This document shows positions 3,855 to 64,000 of a DNA stretch of 64,000 nucleotides, one piece after another. The position numbers and the translations under genes are program-made. The stretch covers positions 620,001-684,000 of the forward strand of contig JANSYK010000002.1 of the NCBI GenBank assembly GCA_024742485.1. Direction: 5' to 3'. The notes beneath the pieces are model-generated. The model saw only the letters and a list, made by a program, of their open reading frames with translations. It made no database searches and was not told where the DNA came from. How positions within the stretch are numbered: the stretch's first letter is position 1; every line of letters starts with the position of its first letter. This DNA is from Alphaproteobacteria bacterium. GTDB taxonomy: Bacteria > Pseudomonadota > Alphaproteobacteria > Rhizobiales > Rhizobiaceae.

Positions 3855-4406
3855 GTGACGACCGGGCATGTCTTCATGGCGATGAGCATTGACGGGTTTG
3901 TTGCCCGCCAAGATCACCGCCTCGATTGGCTGATGAAACAGAAAACCGAGGGCGAGGATCACGGGTACGATGAGTTCATGGCCAGTGTTGACGGTCTGAT
4001 CATGGGGAGCGGATCGTTTCGCAATGTGCTGACATTCGGCGACTGGCCCTATCGAAAGCCGGTCATCGTCATGAGCCGGTCTTTGACGACAGGTGATATC
4101 CCCCTGGACGTGCGCGACAAGGTCAGCATCACACCGCTGGATCCAGGCGGTGTTATGGCCTCCCTTGCAAAAAAGGGTTGGAGGCGGGCCTATGTGGACG
4201 GTGGGCTTGTTGTTCAGTCCTTCCTTCGGGCCGGTCTTGTCGGCGATATGACCATTACCCTGATCCCGATCCTGATCGGAAGCGGGCGCCGACTGTTCGG
4301 ACAACTCGATCGCGACATCGACCTTGAACTGCTCGCCTCGAAATCCTTTCCATCCGGTCTCGTCCAGACCCGCTACAGGATCCGGCAGGAGCAACAACAG
4401 GGATGA
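3855..4406 (+). CDS. Dihydrofolate reductase-family (RibD C-terminal-like) protein
   Basis: Small NADPH-dependent reductase of the DHFR/RibD-C fold, 183 residues; substrate unknown. Recognised by the N-terminal strand GHVFMAMSIDGFVAR, the GLIMGSGSFRNVL cofactor segment, KPVIVMSRS, and the C-terminal RRAYVDGGLVVQSFLRAGL followed by LIPILIGSGRRLF, which is the family signature. The GTG at 3855 is chosen over an upstream in-frame GTG (3828) because TTGGAGAAAG ends 4 bp before it, with GGAG 8 nt away. The last codon overlaps the following TetR gene by ATGA, so the two are probably co-translated and the regulator may control this enzyme. Confidence 0.82.
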   Translation: MTTGHVFMAMSIDGFVARQDHRLDWLMKQKTEGEDHGYDEFMASVDGLIMGSGSFRNVLTFGDWPYRKPVIVMSRSLTTGDIPLDVRDKVSITPLDPGGVMASLAKKGWRRAYVDGGLVVQSFLRAGLVGDMTITLIPILIGSGRRLFGQLDRDIDLELLASKSFPSGLVQTRYRIRQEQQQG

Positions 4407-4972
4407 CCGCCGGCCGCCCGCCAAAAAGCGACAGCACCCTTTCGAAAGACCGTATTCTTGCCACGGCGCTTGCGGTTCTGGACGAGGGTGGCCAGGAGGC
4501 GCTTTCCTTCCGCATTTTGGCGAAGCGGCTGGGTGTCACACCCATGGCAATCGCCCACCATGTCGGTTCGCGACACCAGATGCTGACCGGACTGATCGCC
4601 CAGGTCTATGATGGTATCGCTGTCCCGCCAGAGGGAGATGTCGCACCGGAGGCCTGTGTGCGGTTGATGCTGGAGCGCTATTGCGGTCGCGTGGTGGCGC
4701 ATCCTCAAATTGCGCAGCTGATTTTCGCCGATCAGTCTCTTTTCGCGGGCCATGTGGTGGCGCTCACGGATGTAGTCAGAACAAACATCGCAGCCCTGGT
4801 GTCTGATCCACAGGAGGTTGACCTGCTTGTCGATCTCATTGTCGACTACACCCATGGATTCGCGATTTCGGCGGCGGCAAATCACACGGTGAACGCCCAA
4901 ACTCCGAACGCCGATGATTATCTTCGCGGACTGGACTGGATATTGGTGCGATTGCAGGCGCCGACTGTTTAG
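4403..4972 (+). CDS. TetR-family transcriptional regulator
   Basis: One-component repressor of 189 residues. The N-terminal helix-turn-helix is clear: RILATALAVLDEGGQEALSF, then RILAKRLGVTPMAIAHHVGS (residues about 15-60). The C-terminal ligand domain has no recognised match, so the inducer is unknown. It overlaps the preceding DHFR-family gene by 4 bp, making that enzyme the likeliest target. Its TAG stop codon (4970-4972) is also the first three bases of a dispersed 103-bp repeat, so the present C-terminus (RLQAPTV) may have been set by insertion of that element. Confidence 0.88.
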   Translation: MTAGRPPKSDSTLSKDRILATALAVLDEGGQEALSFRILAKRLGVTPMAIAHHVGSRHQMLTGLIAQVYDGIAVPPEGDVAPEACVRLMLERYCGRVVAHPQIAQLIFADQSLFAGHVVALTDVVRTNIAALVSDPQEVDLLVDLIVDYTHGFAISAAANHTVNAQTPNADDYLRGLDWILVRLQAPTV

Positions 4973-5072
4973 ACCGTTTCACGTTTTGTCGGAAACGGAA
5001 CAACGGTGTCGGCCTTTGATTTTGTTGATGCATTCAGGTTTTGCTGATTCCGTCAAAACCTGAATTGCACTA
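4970..5072 (+). repeat. Dispersed two-hairpin element, copy A (complete)
   Basis: A 103-bp reference copy running from TAGACCGTTTC to GAATTGCACTA. Hairpin 1 pairs CCGTTTC (4974-4980) with GAAACGG (4992-4998). Hairpin 2 pairs TTCAGGTTTTG (5033-5043) with CAAAACCTGAA (5054-5064), a perfect 11-bp stem. It fills the whole gap between the convergent TetR gene and rmuC. The TAG at its left end stops the TetR gene, and the TAG read from its right end on the minus strand stops rmuC. Related copies lie near 14.3, 19.1, 32.4, 48.8 and 60.9 kb. Confidence 0.9.
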
Positions 5073-6335
5073 GCCACCCTTGCTGGCGTGCAACTTCAGG
5101 GGGCCGGTATGATCCGGGACAGAAACGATCCTCTGATCGTCTCCGGTCTCTTTCCCGGTCTCGGGCAAACTTGAGTCCGGTGCCTCGATTTCCAGCGCCT
5201 CGATGCGTGCGCCGCGCTTCGTCACCTTGTCGGTGGATGTCAGGATCTGGTCGATGTCACGTTGAGCCTGTCCGAAATGGGATTGCAGCTTGCGGACCCG
5301 GTCGTCCAGTCGAACGACGTCCTCGACCAGCCGCACCACTTCACCTTGAATGAGATGCGCCTGTTCGCGCATGCGCGCATCTTTCAGAACCGCCTGGATG
5401 ACCTGCACCGACAGCATCAGCAGCGATGGCGAGACGATCACCACCCTGGCGCGATGGGCTTTCTGTACCAGGGCTTCGAAGTTCTCGTGGATCTCGGCAA
5501 AAATGGATTCCGACGGCACGAACATGAAGGCCGTTTCCTGGGTTTCGCCACGCAGCAGATATTTGTCCGAAATGTCCTTGATATGGACCTCGATGTCCCG
5601 CTTGAATTGCTGGGTCACCCGCTTGGCGACCTCGTCTCCTTCCGCATCGCGAATGGCGTTCCATGCCTCCAGGGGAAATTTCGCGTCAATCACCAGGGCC
5701 GGTGCATCATTTGGCATATAGACCACGCAATCGGGCCGGCTTCCGTTGGAAAGGGTTGGTTGGAAGGCATAGGCGTTGGACGGCAACCCGTCTGCAATCA
5801 CCGCCTCCATCCGCGCCTGCCCGAAGGCGCCGCGCGTCTGCTTGTTCGACAGGATGGCCTGAAGGCCGACGACATCCTTTGCCAGCGCCTGAATGTTGTT
5901 TTGCGCCGTATCGATCACGGCCAACCGTTCCTGCAGGCGCGCCAGGTTCTCCTGTGTCGCCTTGGTCTGTTCGCTCAGCGTCGTGCCAAGCCGCTGGCTC
6001 ATGCCGTCGAGGCGCTCATTGATCGTTTTGTTGATTTCACCCTGACGCGATCCGAACACCTCGGCAATCGTCGCCATCCGTCCCTGCATTTCGGCCTGCG
6101 AACTCAACACTTCGGAAAACCGGGCCTCCATGTCCCGGCTGCGCTGCGCGATCTGTTCTTCAGCTTCCATCGCGGCTGCCGTGCGCTTTGCGGTGCTGCG
6201 GCGCGCAACAACAACGCTGGCGGCGACGACAAGACACAGCAATCCGGCCACACCCGCCAGCAGGCCGCCAAGGGTCACCACGGTCTGGCCGACCTGCGCC
6301 ACCGGCAGGTCAAGAGAGAGCTGTACAGGATCCAT
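5070..6335 (-). CDS. rmuC: DNA recombination protein RmuC
   Basis: RmuC limits recombination at inverted repeats; it carries a PD-(D/E)XK-like nuclease fold and is membrane anchored. The protein has 421 residues: one N-terminal membrane helix (about residues 17-43), a long coiled-coil segment rich in Glu, Gln and Arg (about 50-170), then the RmuC core with RPDCVVYMPNDAPALVIDAKFPLE (the D...DAK nuclease-like residues) and KDISDKYLLRGETQETAFMF split across residues of the core. It is divergent from def by about 100 bp. Its TAG stop lies in the right end of the dispersed repeat copy A, so its C-terminus (HASKGG) may be shifted relative to relatives. Confidence 0.92.
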   Translation of the reverse strand: MDPVQLSLDLPVAQVGQTVVTLGGLLAGVAGLLCLVVAASVVVARRSTAKRTAAAMEAEEQIAQRSRDMEARFSEVLSSQAEMQGRMATIAEVFGSRQGEINKTINERLDGMSQRLGTTLSEQTKATQENLARLQERLAVIDTAQNNIQALAKDVVGLQAILSNKQTRGAFGQARMEAVIADGLPSNAYAFQPTLSNGSRPDCVVYMPNDAPALVIDAKFPLEAWNAIRDAEGDEVAKRVTQQFKRDIEVHIKDISDKYLLRGETQETAFMFVPSESIFAEIHENFEALVQKAHRARVVIVSPSLLMLSVQVIQAVLKDARMREQAHLIQGEVVRLVEDVVRLDDRVRKLQSHFGQAQRDIDQILTSTDKVTKRGARIEALEIEAPDSSLPETGKETGDDQRIVSVPDHTGPLKLHASKGG

Positions 6336-13780: not shown

Positions 13781-14311
13781 ATGGAACAACCAATGTTTGG
13801 AACCAAATCCATTGTCGCGGCTGCACTGATCGCCGCCGGCACAATCCTTGCGCCCACGGCACAGGCCGATGACAAGGCGCATGACGCCATGACAAAAACC
13901 AAGATGGCCGGTGATCTTCACTTGTCCGGCTACTGGACGCGCGCCATGCTGCCTGGCCAGAAGGTTGGCGGTGGTTTTCTCGTCATCGCCAACAAGGGCG
14001 CGGCGGATGACCGACTCGTTGCGGTCGCCACGCCGCACACGGACCGTGCCGAGATCCACGAAATGGCCGTGGTCGATGATGTCATGAAAATGCGGCGCCT
14101 GGATGAGGGATTGAAAATCCCCGCCGGAGAATCCGTGGTGCTTGAACCTGGCGGCTTCCACCTGATGTTCATGGCTGTCGAAACACCGTTCAAGGAGGGC
14201 GAAATGGTGCCTGTTACGGTGACATTCGAAAGAGCTGGCGATGTGGAGCTGATGCTGCCGGTCATGCCGGCTGGATCAAAGAAAATGGATCACGGTGCCC
14301 ACAGCAACTAG
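13781..14311 (+). CDS. PCu(A)C-type periplasmic copper chaperone
   Basis: Periplasmic Cu(I)-binding chaperone that delivers copper to cytochrome oxidase. It has a signal peptide (SIVAAALIAAGTILAPTAQA) and a cupredoxin-like domain with the family ligands: HEMAVVDDVMKMRRLDEG, then LEPGGFHLMFM, i.e. the His-x-Met ... Met ... His-x-Met arrangement. The C-terminal HGAHSN adds His residues. Total 176 residues from the ATG at 13781; an ATG at 13793 is also possible. Its TAG stop (14309-14311) is the terminal trinucleotide of dispersed repeat copy B. Confidence 0.88.
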   Translation: MEQPMFGTKSIVAAALIAAGTILAPTAQADDKAHDAMTKTKMAGDLHLSGYWTRAMLPGQKVGGGFLVIANKGAADDRLVAVATPHTDRAEIHEMAVVDDVMKMRRLDEGLKIPAGESVVLEPGGFHLMFMAVETPFKEGEMVPVTVTFERAGDVELMLPVMPAGSKKMDHGAHSN

Positions 14312-14411
14312 AGCAATTCAGGTTTTGACGGAATCGGCAAAACCTGAATGCATCAACAAAATCAAAGTCCGTCACCGTTGTCACGCTTCTGACAAAACGT
14401 GAAACGGTCTA
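14309..14411 (-). repeat. Dispersed two-hairpin element, copy B (complete, inverted)
   Basis: A full 103-bp copy in the opposite orientation to the others, ending GGTCTA. The 11-bp stem TTCAGGTTTTG / CAAAACCTGAA is intact. On the minus strand the first hairpin has switched to CACG/CGTG pairing with compensating changes. The plus-strand left boundary TAGAGCAATTC supplies the stop codon of the copper chaperone gene. It lies between convergent genes; the subtilase gene ends about 160 bp further right. Confidence 0.88.
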
Positions 14412-14573
14412 GTTGTGAGCTTTCAGGTTTTGATTGAAACGGGACAACGGCCCGCACCGGTGTCCCGGTTCAAACAGAACGTTGAAACAGTGCAGAGTTG
14501 GGGCCGCCGCATGACCGATTGAAACGGCGGCCGCTTTTCGGCGGTCCGTTGAGCGCATCTTCGCCTTGCGTCT

Positions 14574-18891: not shown

Positions 18892-19063
18892 ATCTTGTCA
18901 TCCGAACCAAAATGCTCGGGTATCCGTCCATGGCATTGGTTAGGACGGGCGTGATCACACTCTGGCTCGGACCTTCAAACAGTCATGATTTCAACGATCC
19001 ACCCGCAGCCGTGGCACGCCGGCGGTTATTCGTCTGCGACAGAACCAACCGTGCCGGATCAGC

Positions 19064-19151
19064 ACCGAAAATCATGAGACAACGATGTCGGCCGTTGATT
19101 TCGTTTAAGCATTCGGGTTTTGCTCATTCCGTCAAAACCTGAATTATCCTA
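19064..19151 (+). repeat. Dispersed two-hairpin element, copy C (degenerate left half)
   Basis: The right hairpin is retained (TTCGGGTTTTG against CAAAACCTGAA, one mismatch that still allows a G-T pair) and the right end reads GAATTATCCTA. The left half is badly eroded, recognisable only around GACAACGATGTCGG. This is the only copy lying between two genes of the same direction (MFS and SLC13) rather than between convergent genes. The rest of the 270-bp spacer shows a GTGATCACAC palindrome near 18.95 kb and nothing else I recognise. Confidence 0.75.
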
Positions 19152-19161
19152 GAGTGCGATC

Positions 19162-20550
19162 ATGGAACTCAAACACCCAGCCATCGCCGCTGGACTGGTG
19201 TTTTTGGCAGTGCCAGCCCTGTTGCCAGCCCCTGACGGACTCCCCGATTTGGCCTGGTTGGCCTGCGGTCTTGCTCTGACAATGGCGCTTTGGTGGTTGA
19301 CTGAGGCGATTCCCCTTGCAGCCACCGCACTTCTTCCGCTGGCGGCGGCGCCTTTGTTGGGGATTGCGGACATCGGTGACATTGCTGTTTCCTTCAGTCA
19401 TCCGCTGATCATTCTCTTTCTCGGGGGATTTCTGCTGGCGAAGGCCATTGAGAGGTCGGGCCTGCATCGCAGGCTGGCATTTGCAATGTTGGGTATCGCC
19501 GGGAAAGACCCGGGCCGCATACTTGCCGCGATCATGGTGACGACGGGTTTTTTGAGCCTCTGGATCAGCAATACTGCGTCAGCTATGGTGGTCACTCCGA
19601 TCGCGGCCGCTATAGCGGCTACGCAGGCGGATCGGCCAAGGTTTGGAACAGCTTTGATGCTTGGTGTCGCATTCTCCGCCACGATTGGTGGGATTGGATC
19701 CTTGATTGGAACGCCGCCGAACGCGATCTTTGCTGCGCATGTCAGCAAAACCTATGGGATCACGATCGGGTTTGCGCAATGGGCGGCGATTGGCATTCCG
19801 GTTGCCGTTGTCCTGCTCGCATTCGCATGGTTCGGTCTGACACGCCTCACGCCTGCTCCGCATGGGCGGCCACTGACCAGGTCCTTTGGCCTTGGTCTGG
19901 AGGCCATCCGGGTCTCGGAGCGCCGCGTGGCCATTATTGCCGGGCTGACGGCACTGGCCTGGATTCTCCAGCCATTGCTGGATTGGATGTTCCCGTCGCT
20001 CTCGCTGACGGATGCAGGCATTGTAATGGTGGCTGTATTGACCCTGTTTCTTGTATCGGATGGTGCGGGAGGCCGGTTGCTTGATTGGGACACTGCGGCA
20101 ACCATACGCTGGGATGTACTCATTCTATTCGGGGGCGGTTTGGCATTGGCGGGAATCCTGGATGAGACCGGTCTGGCCGCATGGATCGCGGGGAGCATCC
20201 AGACGCTCGATCACCTGCCTGAGATCATTTTTCTCCTGATGATTGCCGCAATCATCGTCTATATAGGTGAGTTGGCGAGCAACACCGCGATGGCAGCCAT
20301 TTTCCTGCCCATTGCAGGCGCGGTGGCCACCTCCCTGAACGTCGATCCGGTGATCTTCCTGGTACCGGTGGCAATGGCCTCATCCATCGGCTTCATGTTG
20401 CCGGTCGCGACGCCGCCCAACGCGATTGTGTTCAGCGATCCGTCTGTAACAAGGGTCGACATGCTCCGTGCGGGCGCGCCACTTGATGTCATTGGCATCT
20501 TGGTCTGCGTTGCACTCAGCTATGTGCTTGGTCCCATCTTCTTTTCGTGA
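19162..20550 (+). CDS. SLC13/DASS-family transporter (dicarboxylate or sulfate)
   Basis: Sodium- or proton-coupled anion symporter of the divalent-anion:Na+ family, 462 residues and roughly eleven helices. Both inverted-repeat Ser-Asn-Thr motifs that bind cation and carboxylate are present: SLWISNTASAMVVTPIAAAI in the first half and GELASNTAMAAIFLPIAGAV in the second. Motifs GTPPNAIFAAHV and VATPPNAIVFSDPSV follow each repeat. Dicarboxylate is the commonest substrate in bacteria, but this cannot be decided from sequence alone. The start ATG lies 11 bp downstream of repeat copy C. Confidence 0.88.
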   Translation: MELKHPAIAAGLVFLAVPALLPAPDGLPDLAWLACGLALTMALWWLTEAIPLAATALLPLAAAPLLGIADIGDIAVSFSHPLIILFLGGFLLAKAIERSGLHRRLAFAMLGIAGKDPGRILAAIMVTTGFLSLWISNTASAMVVTPIAAAIAATQADRPRFGTALMLGVAFSATIGGIGSLIGTPPNAIFAAHVSKTYGITIGFAQWAAIGIPVAVVLLAFAWFGLTRLTPAPHGRPLTRSFGLGLEAIRVSERRVAIIAGLTALAWILQPLLDWMFPSLSLTDAGIVMVAVLTLFLVSDGAGGRLLDWDTAATIRWDVLILFGGGLALAGILDETGLAAWIAGSIQTLDHLPEIIFLLMIAAIIVYIGELASNTAMAAIFLPIAGAVATSLNVDPVIFLVPVAMASSIGFMLPVATPPNAIVFSDPSVTRVDMLRAGAPLDVIGILVCVALSYVLGPIFFS

Positions 20551-32342: not shown

Positions 32343-32445
32343 CAAACCGTTTTACGGTTTGTCAGAAACGGGTCAACGGTGCCGGCCTTTGATTTTGTTG
32401 AGGCATTCAGGTTTTGTCGATACCGTCAAAACCTGAATTGCCCTG
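32343..32445 (+). repeat. Dispersed two-hairpin element, copy D (complete, mutated ends)
   Basis: A 103-bp copy with the right stem TTCAGGTTTTG / CAAAACCTGAA intact and the left stem CCGTTT/AAACGG kept. Terminal trinucleotides have drifted (CAA at the left, CTG at the right instead of TAG...CTA). It lies in a 325-bp convergent spacer between the TetR gene and the ABC-like gene and touches neither. The remainder of the spacer shows nothing I recognise. Confidence 0.85.
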
Positions 32446-40540: not shown

Positions 40541-40700
40541 GCACACCTGTCCTGCCCGGGGCCCCGAACAGCCCTTACAACCCAGCAGACGGTGCGTCTG
40601 ATCACCCTGAGCCGTGACAAGTACAAAGCGGTACCAATCGGGCGAATTAGGCGAGGAGACTGCCGCTTGCTTCAGACGGGGTTTTTGATCGCCCTGAGCC

Positions 40701-40782
40701 CCGAAAAGTGCGTAGCGGTTTTCGGATAAGGCCGAAGGGCCAAACAAAAAAGCCGCCCCGAAAAGTGCGTAGCGGTTTTCGG
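40701..40782 (+). repeat. Paired rhizobial-type hairpin repeat, locus 1
   Basis: Two hairpin units of 25 bp (40701-40725 and 40758-40782), each with arms CCGAAAA and TTTTCGG around a GTGCGTAGCGG loop, spaced 57 bp apart. The unit resembles palindromic repeats common in intergenic regions of rhizobial genomes. A degraded third unit is visible at about 40597-40645 (CACCCTGAGCC then CAAAGCGGTACC). They occupy most of the 349-bp spacer between hyuB and the racemase. They could act as processing or termination signals. The rest of the spacer has only the TGTGATCACA palindrome. Confidence 0.85.
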
Positions 40783-40820
40783 ATAAGGCCGAAGGGCCAG
40801 AAAAAAAAGAGGAGGATGTG

Positions 40821-42900: not shown

Positions 42901-42991
42901 CTGACGCTGGTGTCAGTGTGGATCGTTGCCGGCTTGGCAAGGCGCCTTGATTTCCGTCCAAACGGGATCTGGAGCATGATCACCCTGAGCC

Positions 42992-43073
42992 CCGAAAAGT
43001 GCGAAGCGGTTTTCGGACAAGGTCGAAGGGCCAAACAAAAGAGCCGCCCCGAAAAGTGCGAAGCGGTTTTCGG
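42992..43073 (+). repeat. Paired rhizobial-type hairpin repeat, locus 2
   Basis: Two hairpin units (42992-43016 and 43049-43073) with the same arms CCGAAAA / TTTTCGG, loop GTGCGAAGCGG and the same 57-bp spacing as locus 1. Flanking words (CACCCTGAGCC before, GGCCAAACAAAA after) are also shared, so the two loci are direct repeats of about 110 bp that bracket the racemase-M24 segment. They lie in a 381-bp spacer that otherwise shows a GC-rich stretch near 42.8 kb and one palindrome. Confidence 0.85.
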
Positions 43074-43134
43074 ATGAGGCTGAAGGACCAAACAAAAAAG
43101 AGCGACCAATTGAGGAACCACCAGGCACTCCAAA

Positions 43135-48100: not shown

Positions 48101-48454
48101 ATGGCGCTCAAAAGCATGGTCATGGAGTTCGGATCGGGCACCGATATTCGCGGCGGTGATGCCACCAAGGCTGCCGTTCGCGCCGTTCATGCCGCGCTCC
48201 GGCACAACTCGATCACCTTTGCACAGGCATTCGGCGTACCCAAGGAAACCATATCCGTGAAGATCGTCATCGGCGTGCCGAACCCGGGTGACGTCGATCG
48301 GGAAGCTGTGGCGGCCCTTCTGCCTTACGGAACGGCCGAGGTAACGGTTGTCGACGGGGGCATGACCATCGAGTGCGAAACCGGACCCGGCGCGACCATT
48401 CTCGCCAATGCGGCCTTAACGGTGTTTCTCGACCTTCCGCAGGGAGGGCAGTGA
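48101..48454 (+). CDS. Lin0512-family protein, first of a tandem pair
   Basis: A 117-residue member of the Lin0512 family of unknown function. It has the family pattern MVMEFGSGTDIRGGDATKAA then VRAVHAALRHNSITFAQAFG, with a compact C-terminal half containing GTAEVTVVDGGMTIECETG. The ATG at 48101 is chosen because it gives the family start (MALKSMVMEFGSG). Its TGA overlaps the ATG of a second, related gene, so the two products probably form a heteromer. Located 132 bp after guaD. Confidence 0.78.
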   Translation: MALKSMVMEFGSGTDIRGGDATKAAVRAVHAALRHNSITFAQAFGVPKETISVKIVIGVPNPGDVDREAVAALLPYGTAEVTVVDGGMTIECETGPGATILANAALTVFLDLPQGGQ

Positions 48455-48795
48455 TGACGGCGATGAAGCGCATCATGCTTGAAATGGGCACCGGCAATGC
48501 CCTTCACTCCGCAGATTATACCAAAGCCGCGATCCGCGCTGTCCAGGATGCCATGCATCATTCTTCCCTGACGGTATTTCGAAGCCTTGGCATTGATCCG
48601 GCAACCGCCACCATCGACCTGACGCTTGCCGCACAGGAGCCGGAGAAAATCGACCTGGCCAAGGTGCTTGAAACCCTGCCTTTCGGATCGGTGAAACCGA
48701 AGGCGGTGCATGGTGGACTGAACGTGGTTGATGAGACAACAGGCGATCCGGTGATAATCGTGAATGCCGGGCTCGTGGTGCGGGTGCCGGTTTAG
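48454..48795 (+). CDS. Lin0512-family protein, second of a tandem pair
   Basis: Paralog of the preceding gene, 113 residues: MKRIMLEMGTGNALHSADYT then KAAIRAVQDAMHHSSLTVFR, aligned with the first copy throughout. ATG 48454 overlaps the previous TGA and is preceded by AGGGAGGG. Its TAG stop (48793-48795) is the first trinucleotide of dispersed repeat copy E. Function unknown; the overlap suggests equal expression of the two subunits. Confidence 0.78.
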   Translation: MTAMKRIMLEMGTGNALHSADYTKAAIRAVQDAMHHSSLTVFRSLGIDPATATIDLTLAAQEPEKIDLAKVLETLPFGSVKPKAVHGGLNVVDETTGDPVIIVNAGLVVRVPV

Positions 48796-48850
48796 ACCGT
48801 TTCACGTTTGGCAAGGAACGTGACAAGGGTGCCCGCCGCTGATTTCGAAC
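48793..48850 (+). repeat. Dispersed two-hairpin element, copy E (left half only)
   Basis: Begins TAGACCGTTTCACGTTT exactly as copy A and diverges after about 58 bp; the right hairpin is absent. The first hairpin pairs CACGTT with AACGTG, the alternative pairing also seen in copy B. The TAG is the stop codon of the second Lin0512 gene. It lies between convergent genes. Confidence 0.75.
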
Positions 48851-60676: not shown

Positions 60677-60837
60677 CAGTGCGATCCGCTCCAATCCTGA
60701 TCGCAATCACACATGCCGGGCCTTGATCATCGCGCAAAGATCCCCAAACACTCTCGGAGACAGCCATCATTGCGAAAGCTCGTCGAGCTTGCAATGGTAC
60801 TGATCGAGGCTGACGGAATATCTAAGGCAACACCGAT

Positions 60838-60935
60838 TTGACCGAAACAGATGTTTGTTAGTCGGTTACGATCGGTCGTTGATTTGGTTGATGCGTTCAG
60901 GTCTTGCCGATTCTGTCAAAACCCGAATTGCCCTA
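60838..60935 (+). repeat. Dispersed two-hairpin element, copy F (eroded left half)
   Basis: The right half is well kept (TTCAGGTCTTG against CAAAACCCGAA, a paired change that keeps the stem) and ends GAATTGCCCTA; the left half matches copy A only loosely from GACCGAAACAG on. On the minus strand its terminal TAG is the stop codon of the GGDEF-EAL gene. It sits in a 256-bp spacer between convergent genes. Confidence 0.8.
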
Positions 60936-63599
60936 GGCTGACAATTCCGCTGAATTTCCGGCGCGACGCATCAGTTCGGCAGCCGGCATGGGCTGGGCGA
61001 ATGCATATCCCTGGAGGATATCGCAGCCAAGTTTCTTCAGAAGTTCGGCGTGACGCATCGTCTCCACACCTTCGGCCACCACCTCGATATTCAGCGATTT
61101 GCCGATTTCTATGACTGATTTCGCCAGCTTGCGTGATGCCCGCGACTCCGTCATCGGAATGATCAATTGGCGGTCGATTTTCAACCGGCGCGGATTGAGT
61201 TTCATAAGGCTGACGATCGAGGTTCGACCGGTGCCGAAATCGTCGATCTCGATATCGATGCCCATCGCCTTGATGCTCTCGATATTGCGTAGCACGATGT
61301 CATCGCAATCATCGAGAAAAATTGATTCGACCAGCTCGAAGGAAAGGGTGCCCGGCTCGATATCCAGCGTTGCGAGCCGTTCGGGAAGTGTCGGGTCCAG
61401 CAGGCGTTGCGCGGAAACATTGACCGATGCTCTCGGTATATCAAGACCGTGCAGGGTCCATGTCTTGACGTCTGCCAGGGTCTGTTTCAGAACCTCCCGG
61501 TCGATTGCCGCCGTCAGGTTGAACTCCTCGGAAGCGTCAAGAAACCGGTCCGGTGTCAATATTCCATGCTTCGGATGGTGCCAGCGTGCCAGGGCTTCAA
61601 CGCCGGTGATCCGGTGGCTGCTCGCGTCGAACTGCAATTGATAGTACGGTCTGAATTCGCGCTCCTCGATGCCGCGCATGATATCGTCCGCAAGCGTTTT
61701 CGCGCGCAACGTATTGGCCTGCAGTTCCGGCGTGAAGAAGGCAAACCGGTTGCGCCCCGTGCTTTTGGCTTGATAAAGCGCCAGGTCGGCATTGACCAGC
61801 AAATGCGAAGCCTCGCTGGTACCATATTCAGAGGTTGAGATACCGATGCTGACCCCAAATCGGCATTCTTTGCCATGGTATTGCATCGGTGCGCGCATCT
61901 GGTCGACGATGGATTCTGCCAAGGCCGTCAGTTGTTTTTCATCTGCATCCTGTCGGCACACGATGACAAATTCATCGCCACCGATACGGGCTACGAAATC
62001 CGATGGCCGGGCCAGTGTTCTCAGGATAGCGGAAACATGAACAAGCAGTGCGTCACCGGCGGCGTGGCCAAATGTGTCGTTGATCTGCTTGAACCGATCG
62101 AGGTCAACGATCAGCAGCGCATGGGACAATGTCTCCGGCTGCTCACCCGTCTCCGGCCGGGAAAGCTCGCTGTCCAGGAAGCGGCGATTCGGAAGCCCCG
62201 TCAGACTGTCATGCAGGGCCATATGTTCGATTTTCGCCTTGGTGGCCTCAAGTTCCGCATTCCGGTGCTCCATCTGGGACTTGGCCTGTGTCAACGCATC
62301 ATGCAGTTTCACATCGGCGGTTACATCCCAGTTCAGGCCGATGATGCGCGGAGCATTGCCAACATTGTGAACGGCGGCCTTGGCTCTGATGTGCCGGATA
62401 TCGCCATTGCGCAGGATGACACGAAAATTGGATTGGTATTGTCCGCGTGATTGCAGCGCCTCATCGAATTCATCCAGCGCGCGCTGCGCATCGTCGGGAT
62501 GCAGCGTACTGCTCCAGACATCGACATTGGGTGTTTCGATGTCCGGCGGCAGGTCGTAAAGCTCGCGCATCCGGTCATCCCAAACCAGTTCATCGGTTTC
62601 GAGATTGAGTTCCCAGACGCCCACATTTGACGCGTCAAGGGCGAGTTCCAGTCGTCGCGACAGGCGTTGCAGGTGTTCCTCACGAATCCGCAGGTCCCGC
62701 ATGCTCGTCTTGCGCTGTTCGGACAGGCGTTCGGCAATCGCGATCGGCAGCAGGACCAGAATTCCGGCAATGATGATGAGGAGGCGCTGCCACCAGACTG
62801 CTGCAGACGGTTGGTTCCAACCATTCTTGGGAACTGCGGCCAGCAGCCATGAGCCGTTTGGCAGAGCAACTTCAGCGGTCACGGGCGATGAAGCCAATAC
62901 GCTGACAGGTCCGAAGAATTGCGCCCCGGAACCGCCGGAAGCATCCTGCCCGATGATTGCCACATCGATCGGCAAATCGGGATCGAGCAGACCGCTGTCC
63001 CGGTAAAGGCGTTCCGTGTCGATCACTGCCGAAACAATACCCCAAAAACCGCTTTCGCCGGCTTCCCCGGTGAAGACGGGAAAACGGCCGATGATCCCCT
63101 CGCCACCCTGGACCAGATCGACCGGCCCGGCGATTACGATTTCCGCGCCATCACGAACGGCCATCGCCATGGCGCGTTGCGCCGCGTTCTGGCGATAGTC
63201 CAGGCCAATCGCCCGCTCATTGCCTGCCATAGGATACATCAGGGAGACAATGAGATCGGGCGCGGCAGCAATATTGCGCAGTTGCGAGTTGCCCGTGAAC
63301 AGGTGGCTGGACAATTCGGCGAACCGGCCCTGTGGCATTTCGGGCTCTGTTTTCAAAGTGGAAATGAGCCCTCGGACCAACTGGATGTTTCCGTTGATGT
63401 TGCCTTCGAGTTTTGCGCGGATGAGGCCGATGCGTTCACCCACCGAAATCCGCAATTCCTGTTGCGCCGCTTCCCGGTTCTGCCTGTCAACAAGGGTTCC
63501 GACCATGGCGATCAGAACAAAGGCAACCACAAGCAGCGGACTGAAGCCCAGCTTGCTGGCCGTAGACTGCCTTTGTGTCGGTTTCAGTTCGGAGTCCAT
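60933..63599 (-). CDS. CHASE-PAS-GGDEF-EAL cyclic-di-GMP signalling protein
   Basis: Membrane-bound c-di-GMP enzyme of 888 residues. Order: short N-terminus and helix (SPLLVVAFVLIAMVGTLVDR), periplasmic CHASE-type domain (about 45-265; RDGAEIVIAGPVDLVQGGEG is typical), second helix (LLIIIAGILVLLPIAIA), PAS domain with PAC motif (about 320-430), GGDEF (LHDSLTGLPNRRF, then RIGGDEFVIVC intact) and EAL (GVEALARWHHPKHG, then VAEGVETMRHAELLKKLGCD, active-site residues intact). Both making and degrading c-di-GMP are therefore possible. The ATG at 63599 is preferred to a TTG three codons upstream. Its TAG stop lies in the end of repeat copy F. Confidence 0.92.
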   Translation of the reverse strand: MDSELKPTQRQSTASKLGFSPLLVVAFVLIAMVGTLVDRQNREAAQQELRISVGERIGLIRAKLEGNINGNIQLVRGLISTLKTEPEMPQGRFAELSSHLFTGNSQLRNIAAAPDLIVSLMYPMAGNERAIGLDYRQNAAQRAMAMAVRDGAEIVIAGPVDLVQGGEGIIGRFPVFTGEAGESGFWGIVSAVIDTERLYRDSGLLDPDLPIDVAIIGQDASGGSGAQFFGPVSVLASSPVTAEVALPNGSWLLAAVPKNGWNQPSAAVWWQRLLIIIAGILVLLPIAIAERLSEQRKTSMRDLRIREEHLQRLSRRLELALDASNVGVWELNLETDELVWDDRMRELYDLPPDIETPNVDVWSSTLHPDDAQRALDEFDEALQSRGQYQSNFRVILRNGDIRHIRAKAAVHNVGNAPRIIGLNWDVTADVKLHDALTQAKSQMEHRNAELEATKAKIEHMALHDSLTGLPNRRFLDSELSRPETGEQPETLSHALLIVDLDRFKQINDTFGHAAGDALLVHVSAILRTLARPSDFVARIGGDEFVIVCRQDADEKQLTALAESIVDQMRAPMQYHGKECRFGVSIGISTSEYGTSEASHLLVNADLALYQAKSTGRNRFAFFTPELQANTLRAKTLADDIMRGIEEREFRPYYQLQFDASSHRITGVEALARWHHPKHGILTPDRFLDASEEFNLTAAIDREVLKQTLADVKTWTLHGLDIPRASVNVSAQRLLDPTLPERLATLDIEPGTLSFELVESIFLDDCDDIVLRNIESIKAMGIDIEIDDFGTGRTSIVSLMKLNPRRLKIDRQLIIPMTESRASRKLAKSVIEIGKSLNIEVVAEGVETMRHAELLKKLGCDILQGYAFAQPMPAAELMRRAGNSAELSA

Positions 63600-64000
63600 T
63601 TGTTCCAACCATCGATCCGAGCATTACGGGCCGGACCGAGTCCCCACCTGGTGACAAACGACGAAATCCGATGGTTCCGAAAGTGTCGCACCCTGGAATT
63701 GCGCGTCTAGTCCCAATGACCCTGACGGAACAAAGATAAAAAACCTTGAATTGATTTGGTTAAAATAGTCACAACTCTACCGTGTTGGTGAGCAGGCATG
63801 CAGCCTGGGGAACTCGGATTTGAACCCATCACCAACGGAAAATAGGCATATGTGCCTAGAGAAACAGCAGCTTTGACAATAGCCGTCTGGCGGCGTCTCG
63901 CCATCAAATGATGCGACCAAATTCTTTTGTCATGGACGTCGGGAGGGGTGGCTTGCCGTTCGACCAAATCGCTGGACTTGCCATGCCGGAGTATCGCCGG
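63600..64000. other. No gene recognised
   Basis: About 400 bp upstream of the GGDEF-EAL gene. It should hold that gene's promoter, but no -10/-35 pair stands out. An 86-codon minus-strand reading frame at 63707-63967 has no family features. A GGGTTCAAATCC word on the minus strand near 63.82 kb looks like a tRNA T-arm but no cloverleaf can be built around it. Confidence 0.5.

Follow-up and report, generated by a model that had tools for sequence, protein, structure and literature searches.

The window, a stretch of 64,000 nt of rhizobial DNA, carries a mobile repeat of a known kind, and the rebuilding of stop codons by this repeat is clear and general. Judged by its sequence, the repeat is MITE-like, inserting at the TA of YTAR, with CTAG as the best target, and duplicating the TA. 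We consider it highly probable that it is a non-autonomous MITE-like element of 99 nt, moved by a transposase in trans to the TA of YTAR, and that selection keeps the TAG it rebuilds. Of these parts, sequence comparison supports the target, the TA duplication and the spread of the family, and we infer that the transposase is supplied in trans and is most likely of the DDE type.

In the mechanism we propose, a putative trans-acting transposase, most likely of DDE type, would insert the element at the TA of YTAR, duplicating the TA. Where this TA lies within a TAA or TAG stop, each flank would keep a TA and gain the terminal G of the element, so that a gene on either strand would still end in TAG, at the same codon. 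Insertions into stop codons would thus be harmless and kept, those inside genes would probably be purged, and since coding sequence contains few CTAG and YTAR sites while stops have them relatively often, many of the tolerated sites would be stops. The gene would then depend on the TAG of the element, with purifying selection keeping the TAGs in use while unused ones decay. This offers a testable rule for how small mobile repeats may colonise compact bacterial genomes: target and end letters together restore the stop on both strands.

The repeat and its copies in the window

The consensus, from an alignment of 30 own-genome copies and three window copies, has 105 positions, starting with CTAGACCGTTTCACGTTTTG and finishing with GAATTGCNCTAG. 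The repeat has an imperfect terminal inverted repeat (CTAGACCGTTTCACGTTTTG / CTAGWGCAATTCAGGTTTTG) and two palindromic hairpins, one of which starts a few nt 3' of each TAG in the consensus. It measures 103 nt from TA to TA, and the element proper, from G to C, 99 nt. Read from the consensus, the frame of the left TAG contains no further stop, so that without this TAG the product would gain about 33 residues and reading would continue into the opposite flank.

A sequence-model search found at least 150 copies in the source genome (G000, 6.87 Mb). The left-end pattern, allowing up to 3 mismatches, occurs 117 times in G000 and 441 times in the congener G001, and its reversed control gave 0 matches in both. 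The repeat had no match in six other genomes of the genus that were searched. Rfam holds no family for it and returned one chance-level match (E 0.72). The copies in the window and the genes that stop on them are as follows.

Copy A, 4970..5072, plus strand: 103 nt from TA to TA, element proper G...C at 4972-5070, stop codon at both ends
Left TAG of copy A, 4970-4972: stop codon of the TetR-family gene
TetR-family gene, 4403..4972, plus strand: stop TAG formed by the TA of the putative duplication and the first G of copy A; Pfam TetR_N
rmuC, 5070..6335, minus strand: stop TAG through the right end of copy A (CTA 5070-5072); Pfam RmuC
PCu(A)C copper chaperone gene, 13781..14311, plus strand: stop TAG 14309-14311, the right end of copy B; Pfam PCuAC
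Copy B, 14309..14411, minus strand (reverse orientation): 103 nt, right end a stop codon
Copy C, 19062..19152, plus strand: left end diverged, right end CTAG
Copy D, 32344..32444, plus strand: terminal TAs decayed at both ends, not on a stop codon
Second Lin0512-family gene, 48373..48795, plus strand: stop TAG 48793-48795, the left end of copy E
Copy E, 48793..48847, plus strand: left-end fragment, model positions 2-56
Copy F, 60834..60936, plus strand: left half diverged, right CTAG carrying a stop (CTA 60933-60935)
CHASE-PAS-GGDEF-EAL gene, 60933..63608, minus strand: stop TAG provided by the right end of copy F; Pfam GGDEF/EAL

A sequence-only reading of the window had named five genes as stopping exactly on the terminal TAG of the repeat, and the sequence and its list of open reading frames confirm this exactly at copies A, B, E and F. 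Annotators and repeat maskers should be aware that in many rhizobial genes the last codon may fall within a repeat. Pfam confirmed the Lin0512_fam domain in both Lin0512 genes; in the second it is complete and ends 4 residues ahead of the stop. Among the genes called by codon score, none ends at copies C and D. About 10 nt separate the right CTAG of copy C from the start codon of the downstream ORF at 19162 (window 19149-19162), and copy C may overlap the ribosome-binding region of that ORF.

Two further repeats were seen in the window. A degenerate, partial second copy adjoins copy B at 14422-14488, and a direct repeat of 126 nt with 91% identity lies at 40686-40811 and 42977-43102, the two units spaced by 2.3 kb.

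Target site and TA duplication

We reconstructed the target from copies in which neither end has lost its TA, 21 in the own genome and 16 in G001/CANMVS. In the own genome, position 4 is G in 21/21 and position 102 C in 19/21, the bases farther out being variable, and the reconstructed target reads YTAR in 18/21 and CTAG in 12/21. The G001/CANMVS copies gave G at position 4 in 15/16, C at position 102 in 12/16 and a YTAR target in 12/16. Because G4 and C102 are nearly constant and the bases outside them vary, the element proper runs from this G to this C, with the TA as target duplication. Of the suggestions of the sequence-only reading, insertion at the very end of genes and a CTAG-like target context were both borne out.

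Site A was the only empty site aligned on both sides. In G003, which lacks the element and shares 85% identity over rmuC, the TetR-like gene ends in TAA and the convergent rmuC in TAG, with one TA shared by both stops. At the filled site in the window each convergent gene has a TA of its own followed by the G of the element. The stop column of rmuC is the same in both genomes, and the TetR tail in the window is 4 residues longer than that of its G003 homolog. Here it is clearest, by comparison with G003, that the repeat supplies a stop codon to both flanking genes, as had been proposed from the sequence alone. At copy B, the G003 homolog of the chaperone stops at the same codon with TGA, and that of G005 ends in AAC TAG, like the window gene.

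Duplication of a dinucleotide other than TA was rejected, as changed left and right dinucleotides disagree with each other. At unused ends the terminal T and A are off consensus in 34-47% (per base, over 70 own copies), CA and TG being the usual replacements, and the changes at the two ends are independent of each other; inner positions are off consensus at a median of 10%, with a few inner columns at 34-51% (own copies). This terminal divergence raises the possibility that TA was not the starting point of every insertion. A CTAG-specific erosion was rejected in G000, where TA is kept in 35/137 after C versus 14/67 after T; in G001/CANMVS there is some difference in TA retention (20/60 after C versus 22/46 after T).

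Stop codons at the element ends

For the genome-wide frame test we used 826 kb of merged sequence from the 6.87 Mb of the own genome, taken as stretches around the best 150 matches, where 179 nhmmer hits gave 304 ends to score (148 left, 156 right). Genes were called with a home-made caller based on codon log-odds; the counts cover ORFs of at least 50 codons with a coding score above 8, and copies with a resolvable end. Among the 85 genes that run into an element end, 82 do so in frame 0 of the TAG (binomial against 1/3, p ~2e-35), and 81 stop exactly there. In the congener (G001/CANMVS01) all 15 of 15 genes enter in frame 0 and stop on the TAG (p ~7e-8 against 1/3). Other genera, analysed with the codon score of the genus of the window, gave 23/30 genes in frame and 21 stopping at the TA. 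Entry in frame at no more than the chance rate would have spoken against the sequence-only reading, and the rate lies far above it in both the own genome and the congener. At least one stop end was present in 65/136 two-ended copies of the own genome and in 13/58 of G001/CANMVS.

The terminal G...C is found in several genera. A tentative, on balance doubtful, view is that it represents an evolved 'safe landing' design, in which the element targets the core of the stop codon and its ends always rebuild TAG on both strands. If this were true, hundreds of copies would be reachable, and in each genome dozens of host genes would need the element to terminate their translation.

The two classes of TAG differ in retention. 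In the own genome, the stop was lost in 1/82 genes that enter in frame 0 and kept in 81/82. Where a copy has a single used end, the TAG survives at 11/62 opposite ends, and in copies without a used end at 35/140 ends. Identity to the consensus was alike in copies with (0.888) and without (0.885) a used end. The repeat thereby provides a natural experiment on stop-codon selection, the TAGs at the ends of one element differing in use.

We considered whether the hairpins might serve the genes as 3' stem-loops or terminators and so keep the element at gene ends, with the stop codon as a side effect. The position of a hairpin a few nt after each TAG fits this explanation, as do 6 pairs of the right-end stem that changed on both sides across four genera. 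However, hairpins adjoining used stops show no higher conservation than the others (p=0.94 left, p=0.17 right) and so give no sign that the genes need them, and RNAalifold found 0 compensatory pairs among the own-genome copies. Across genera, 94.4% of the cells of the two palindromes are paired versus 27-58% in slid controls. The left stem varies hardly at all, and the count of further pair types, one of five whole-structure measures, was not above shuffles (483/500 as high). Taken together, the covariation of the right stem between genera and the lack of compensatory pairs among own-genome copies point to a role for the palindrome in the mobile form, a need that the cross-genus covariation also fits. 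We think a service of the hairpins to the genes quite unlikely, and prefer selection on the rebuilt TAG itself.

A further question is whether the mover, beyond its preference for YTAR, senses stop codons or the 3' ends of genes, for example through terminating transcription or translation. As a null we took 264 kb of element-free relatives with 225 genes from the home-made caller, in which 84 CTAG sites divide into 17 coding, 16 stop and 51 intergenic ones. There, YTAR at stops compared with 3-100 nt downstream stands at 34:38 (CTAG 16:3, other YTAR 18:35). The element ends stand at 81:81 (stops versus 3-99 nt), which resembles this null in kind, the method not being identical, and the closeness of the two ratios suggests that the YTAR target rule suffices. 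The insertion preference for stop codons as such that the sequence-only reading had thought unusual is thus not needed. Counted per copy, the share touching a stop in the own genome (65/136) is higher than that of stops among non-coding CTAG sites in the element-free relatives (16/67), which would favour active recognition. But loss of promoter-damaging insertions would likewise raise the share of gene ends and could account for this difference, the sites just downstream of genes reveal no excess at stops, and only 13/58 congener copies lie at a stop. We therefore give active recognition even less credence than the hairpin role, and regard target choice at YTAR followed by selection as the better account.

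We then asked if the stops are original by comparing C-termini with the element-free G003. The queries were pieces of 36 genes among the 81 with stop ends, namely those with the best coding scores among genes of at least 120 codons. The 32 matches correspond to 28 genes: two lacked a locus, L233 was set aside as the weaker of two matches to the L205 gene, and L232, which matched the L208 gene a second time, was aligned and kept out of the count. The stop falls in the same alignment column as in G003 in 20/28 (17 without leftover residues, 3 with equal leftovers), which bears on the C-terminus comparison that the sequence-only reading had proposed: as a rule the stop is not newly truncating. 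Seven of the remaining eight differ by 1-5 residues, and one, with a poorly aligned tail, by about 10; none of the 28 is more than 5 residues shorter than its G003 ortholog. Same-column stops make up 14/15 at right ends and 6/13 at left ends, the latter holding 7 of the 8 differing C-termini. The G003 stops are TGA in 14, TAG in 9 and TAA in 5, so that for half of these genes an ancestral stop containing TA is inferred rather than observed.

The retention of the stop in 14/15 right-end genes favours TA duplication over a simple insertion after TAG. It thereby bears on the alternative of a REP-like element, moved by a tyrosine transposase (IS200/IS605, RAYT) whose cut would follow a target with TAG and leave no duplication. 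The repeat shares with GTAG REPs, as described in passages of PMC3733652, a pair of terminal hairpins and an end that contains TAG. Against this, the outer bases vary at both ends while G4 and C102 are nearly constant, and keeping the G003 stop column requires TA duplication. The repeat thus appears to possess a target duplication, the absence of which would mark REP/RAYT and IS200/IS605 elements, and we judge this alternative very improbable.

Least credible of all is a random truncation or extension of genes in which survival was limited to those cut in frame with the TAG: the differing C-terminal lengths in 8/28 orthologs and the longer TetR tail at site A agree with it, but the C-terminal comparison largely contradicts it, with the same codon in most orthologs and no marked shortening, and the C-terminal Pfam domains of the PCuAC, RmuC, Lin0512 and EAL genes of the window are complete or nearly so. 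The CHASE-PAS-GGDEF-EAL gene has a G003 ortholog with the same terminal residues, ELSA, followed by TAG.

Relatives of the repeat and search for the mover

Candidate partners were sought with the transposase families PF13358 and PF13586 and with a piece of one IS. An IS630-type partner (PF13358, DDE_3) was rejected: G000 has 2 matches only, on other contigs (C50, C108), and G001, with its 441 left ends at up to 3 mismatches, has none. An IS5-type partner (PF13586) was also rejected, with 0 own matches and 2 below the cut-off in G001, one of them in an 842-bp IS whose ends are unlike those of the repeat. This IS4/5-type IS (L234:927-1768, G001) carries pieces of DUF4096 and DDE_Tnp_1 in two frames and sits inside the terminal CTAG of one copy of the repeat; its C-terminal piece has only two short matches in G000. 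Because its ends differ from those of the repeat, it is a user of the site and not necessarily the mover. Run on eight loci with PF13358, PF13586 or IS-piece matches, the repeat profile found only the copy beside the 842-bp IS and chance-level hits elsewhere, and no autonomous IS with the terminal inverted repeats of the element occurred among these matches. A search for longer parents, as shared sequence beyond partial copies, gave one 18-nt match only.

Several known systems resemble the repeat. Passages from PMC2266754, PMC3163539 and PMC10800456 describe Bru-RS1 and Bru-RS2 of Brucella as palindromic repeats of 103-106 bp that are sites for IS711, an IS of 842 bp (PMC3163539) that duplicates TA at YTAR (PMC2266754, PMC3163539). 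TA duplication at YTAR is common to IS711 and the repeat studied here. The pair of Bru-RS1 and IS711 also parallels our 103-nt repeat and the 842-bp IS in the terminal CTAG of one G001 copy, a likeness at the level of description. RUP, which is linked to IS630-Spn1, is a short non-autonomous repeat of 107 bp with insertions at TA targets according to passages of PMC2229807. IS630-type transposases (DDE_3) had no match in G001, which has 441 left ends at up to 3 mismatches. Correia/NEMIS and ERIC elements also target TA. RUP, Correia/NEMIS and ERIC are, like the repeat, short non-autonomous MITEs with a TA target. The passages on Bru-RS (PMC2266754, PMC3163539, PMC10800456) hold nothing on stop codons, and those on RUP (PMC2229807) do not describe stop-codon rebuilding. 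More generally, no stop-codon relation of these repeats is stated in the passages of the literature searched, which included PMC1273637, PMC2573895 and PMC10459465, the original RIME and 1994 Bru-RS texts lying outside this scope.

Within the bacterial family, the structure model R2, built from 17 sequences of four genera, found full-length relatives (model positions 1-105), mostly of 102-108 nt, in 27/394 genomes and 14/109 genera sampled; 6 of the 27 positive genomes had themselves contributed to the model, and several of the rest were borderline (E 1e-6 to 1e-4). With the G177 relative as query, 442 public plasmid records were matched, mostly of Rhizobium (268) and Sinorhizobium (136). The consensus of the window lineage itself matched no plasmid record, which indicates that this lineage has diverged.

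RIME1, the Rhizobium-specific intergenic mosaic element, is a sequence of about 109 bp with two large palindromes that occurs in rhizobia. The Rhizobium and Sinorhizobium relatives of the repeat, which we take to be RIME1-like, recall it by description only, in length, in the two palindromes and in host range.

The plasmid records allowed the stop pattern to be examined under independent annotation. From the 12 best rows of the search we examined five, two of which had a listed gene at the element. A second sample of 60 records down the ranking comprised 16 with a feature under the match, 30 with none and 14 unannotated; 13 of the 16 were examined, the other three being one place already counted and two that by gene name are likely the same place in another strain. 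The exceptions were L321, a hypothetical ORF that runs through the whole element, and, at L329, a second gene, whose end falls within a truncated match. In 14 of the 15 places with a listed gene under the match, the gene stops on the terminal triplet, which is TAG in 13 and TAA in one (L320); for L317, among the 14, the listed feature is a predicted resistance gene and not a CDS. The pattern was seen in plasmids of Rhizobium, Sinorhizobium, Ensifer, Shinella, Nitratireductor and Phyllobacterium, and the RIME1-like plasmid relatives thus have the same relation to stop codons as the repeat of the window.
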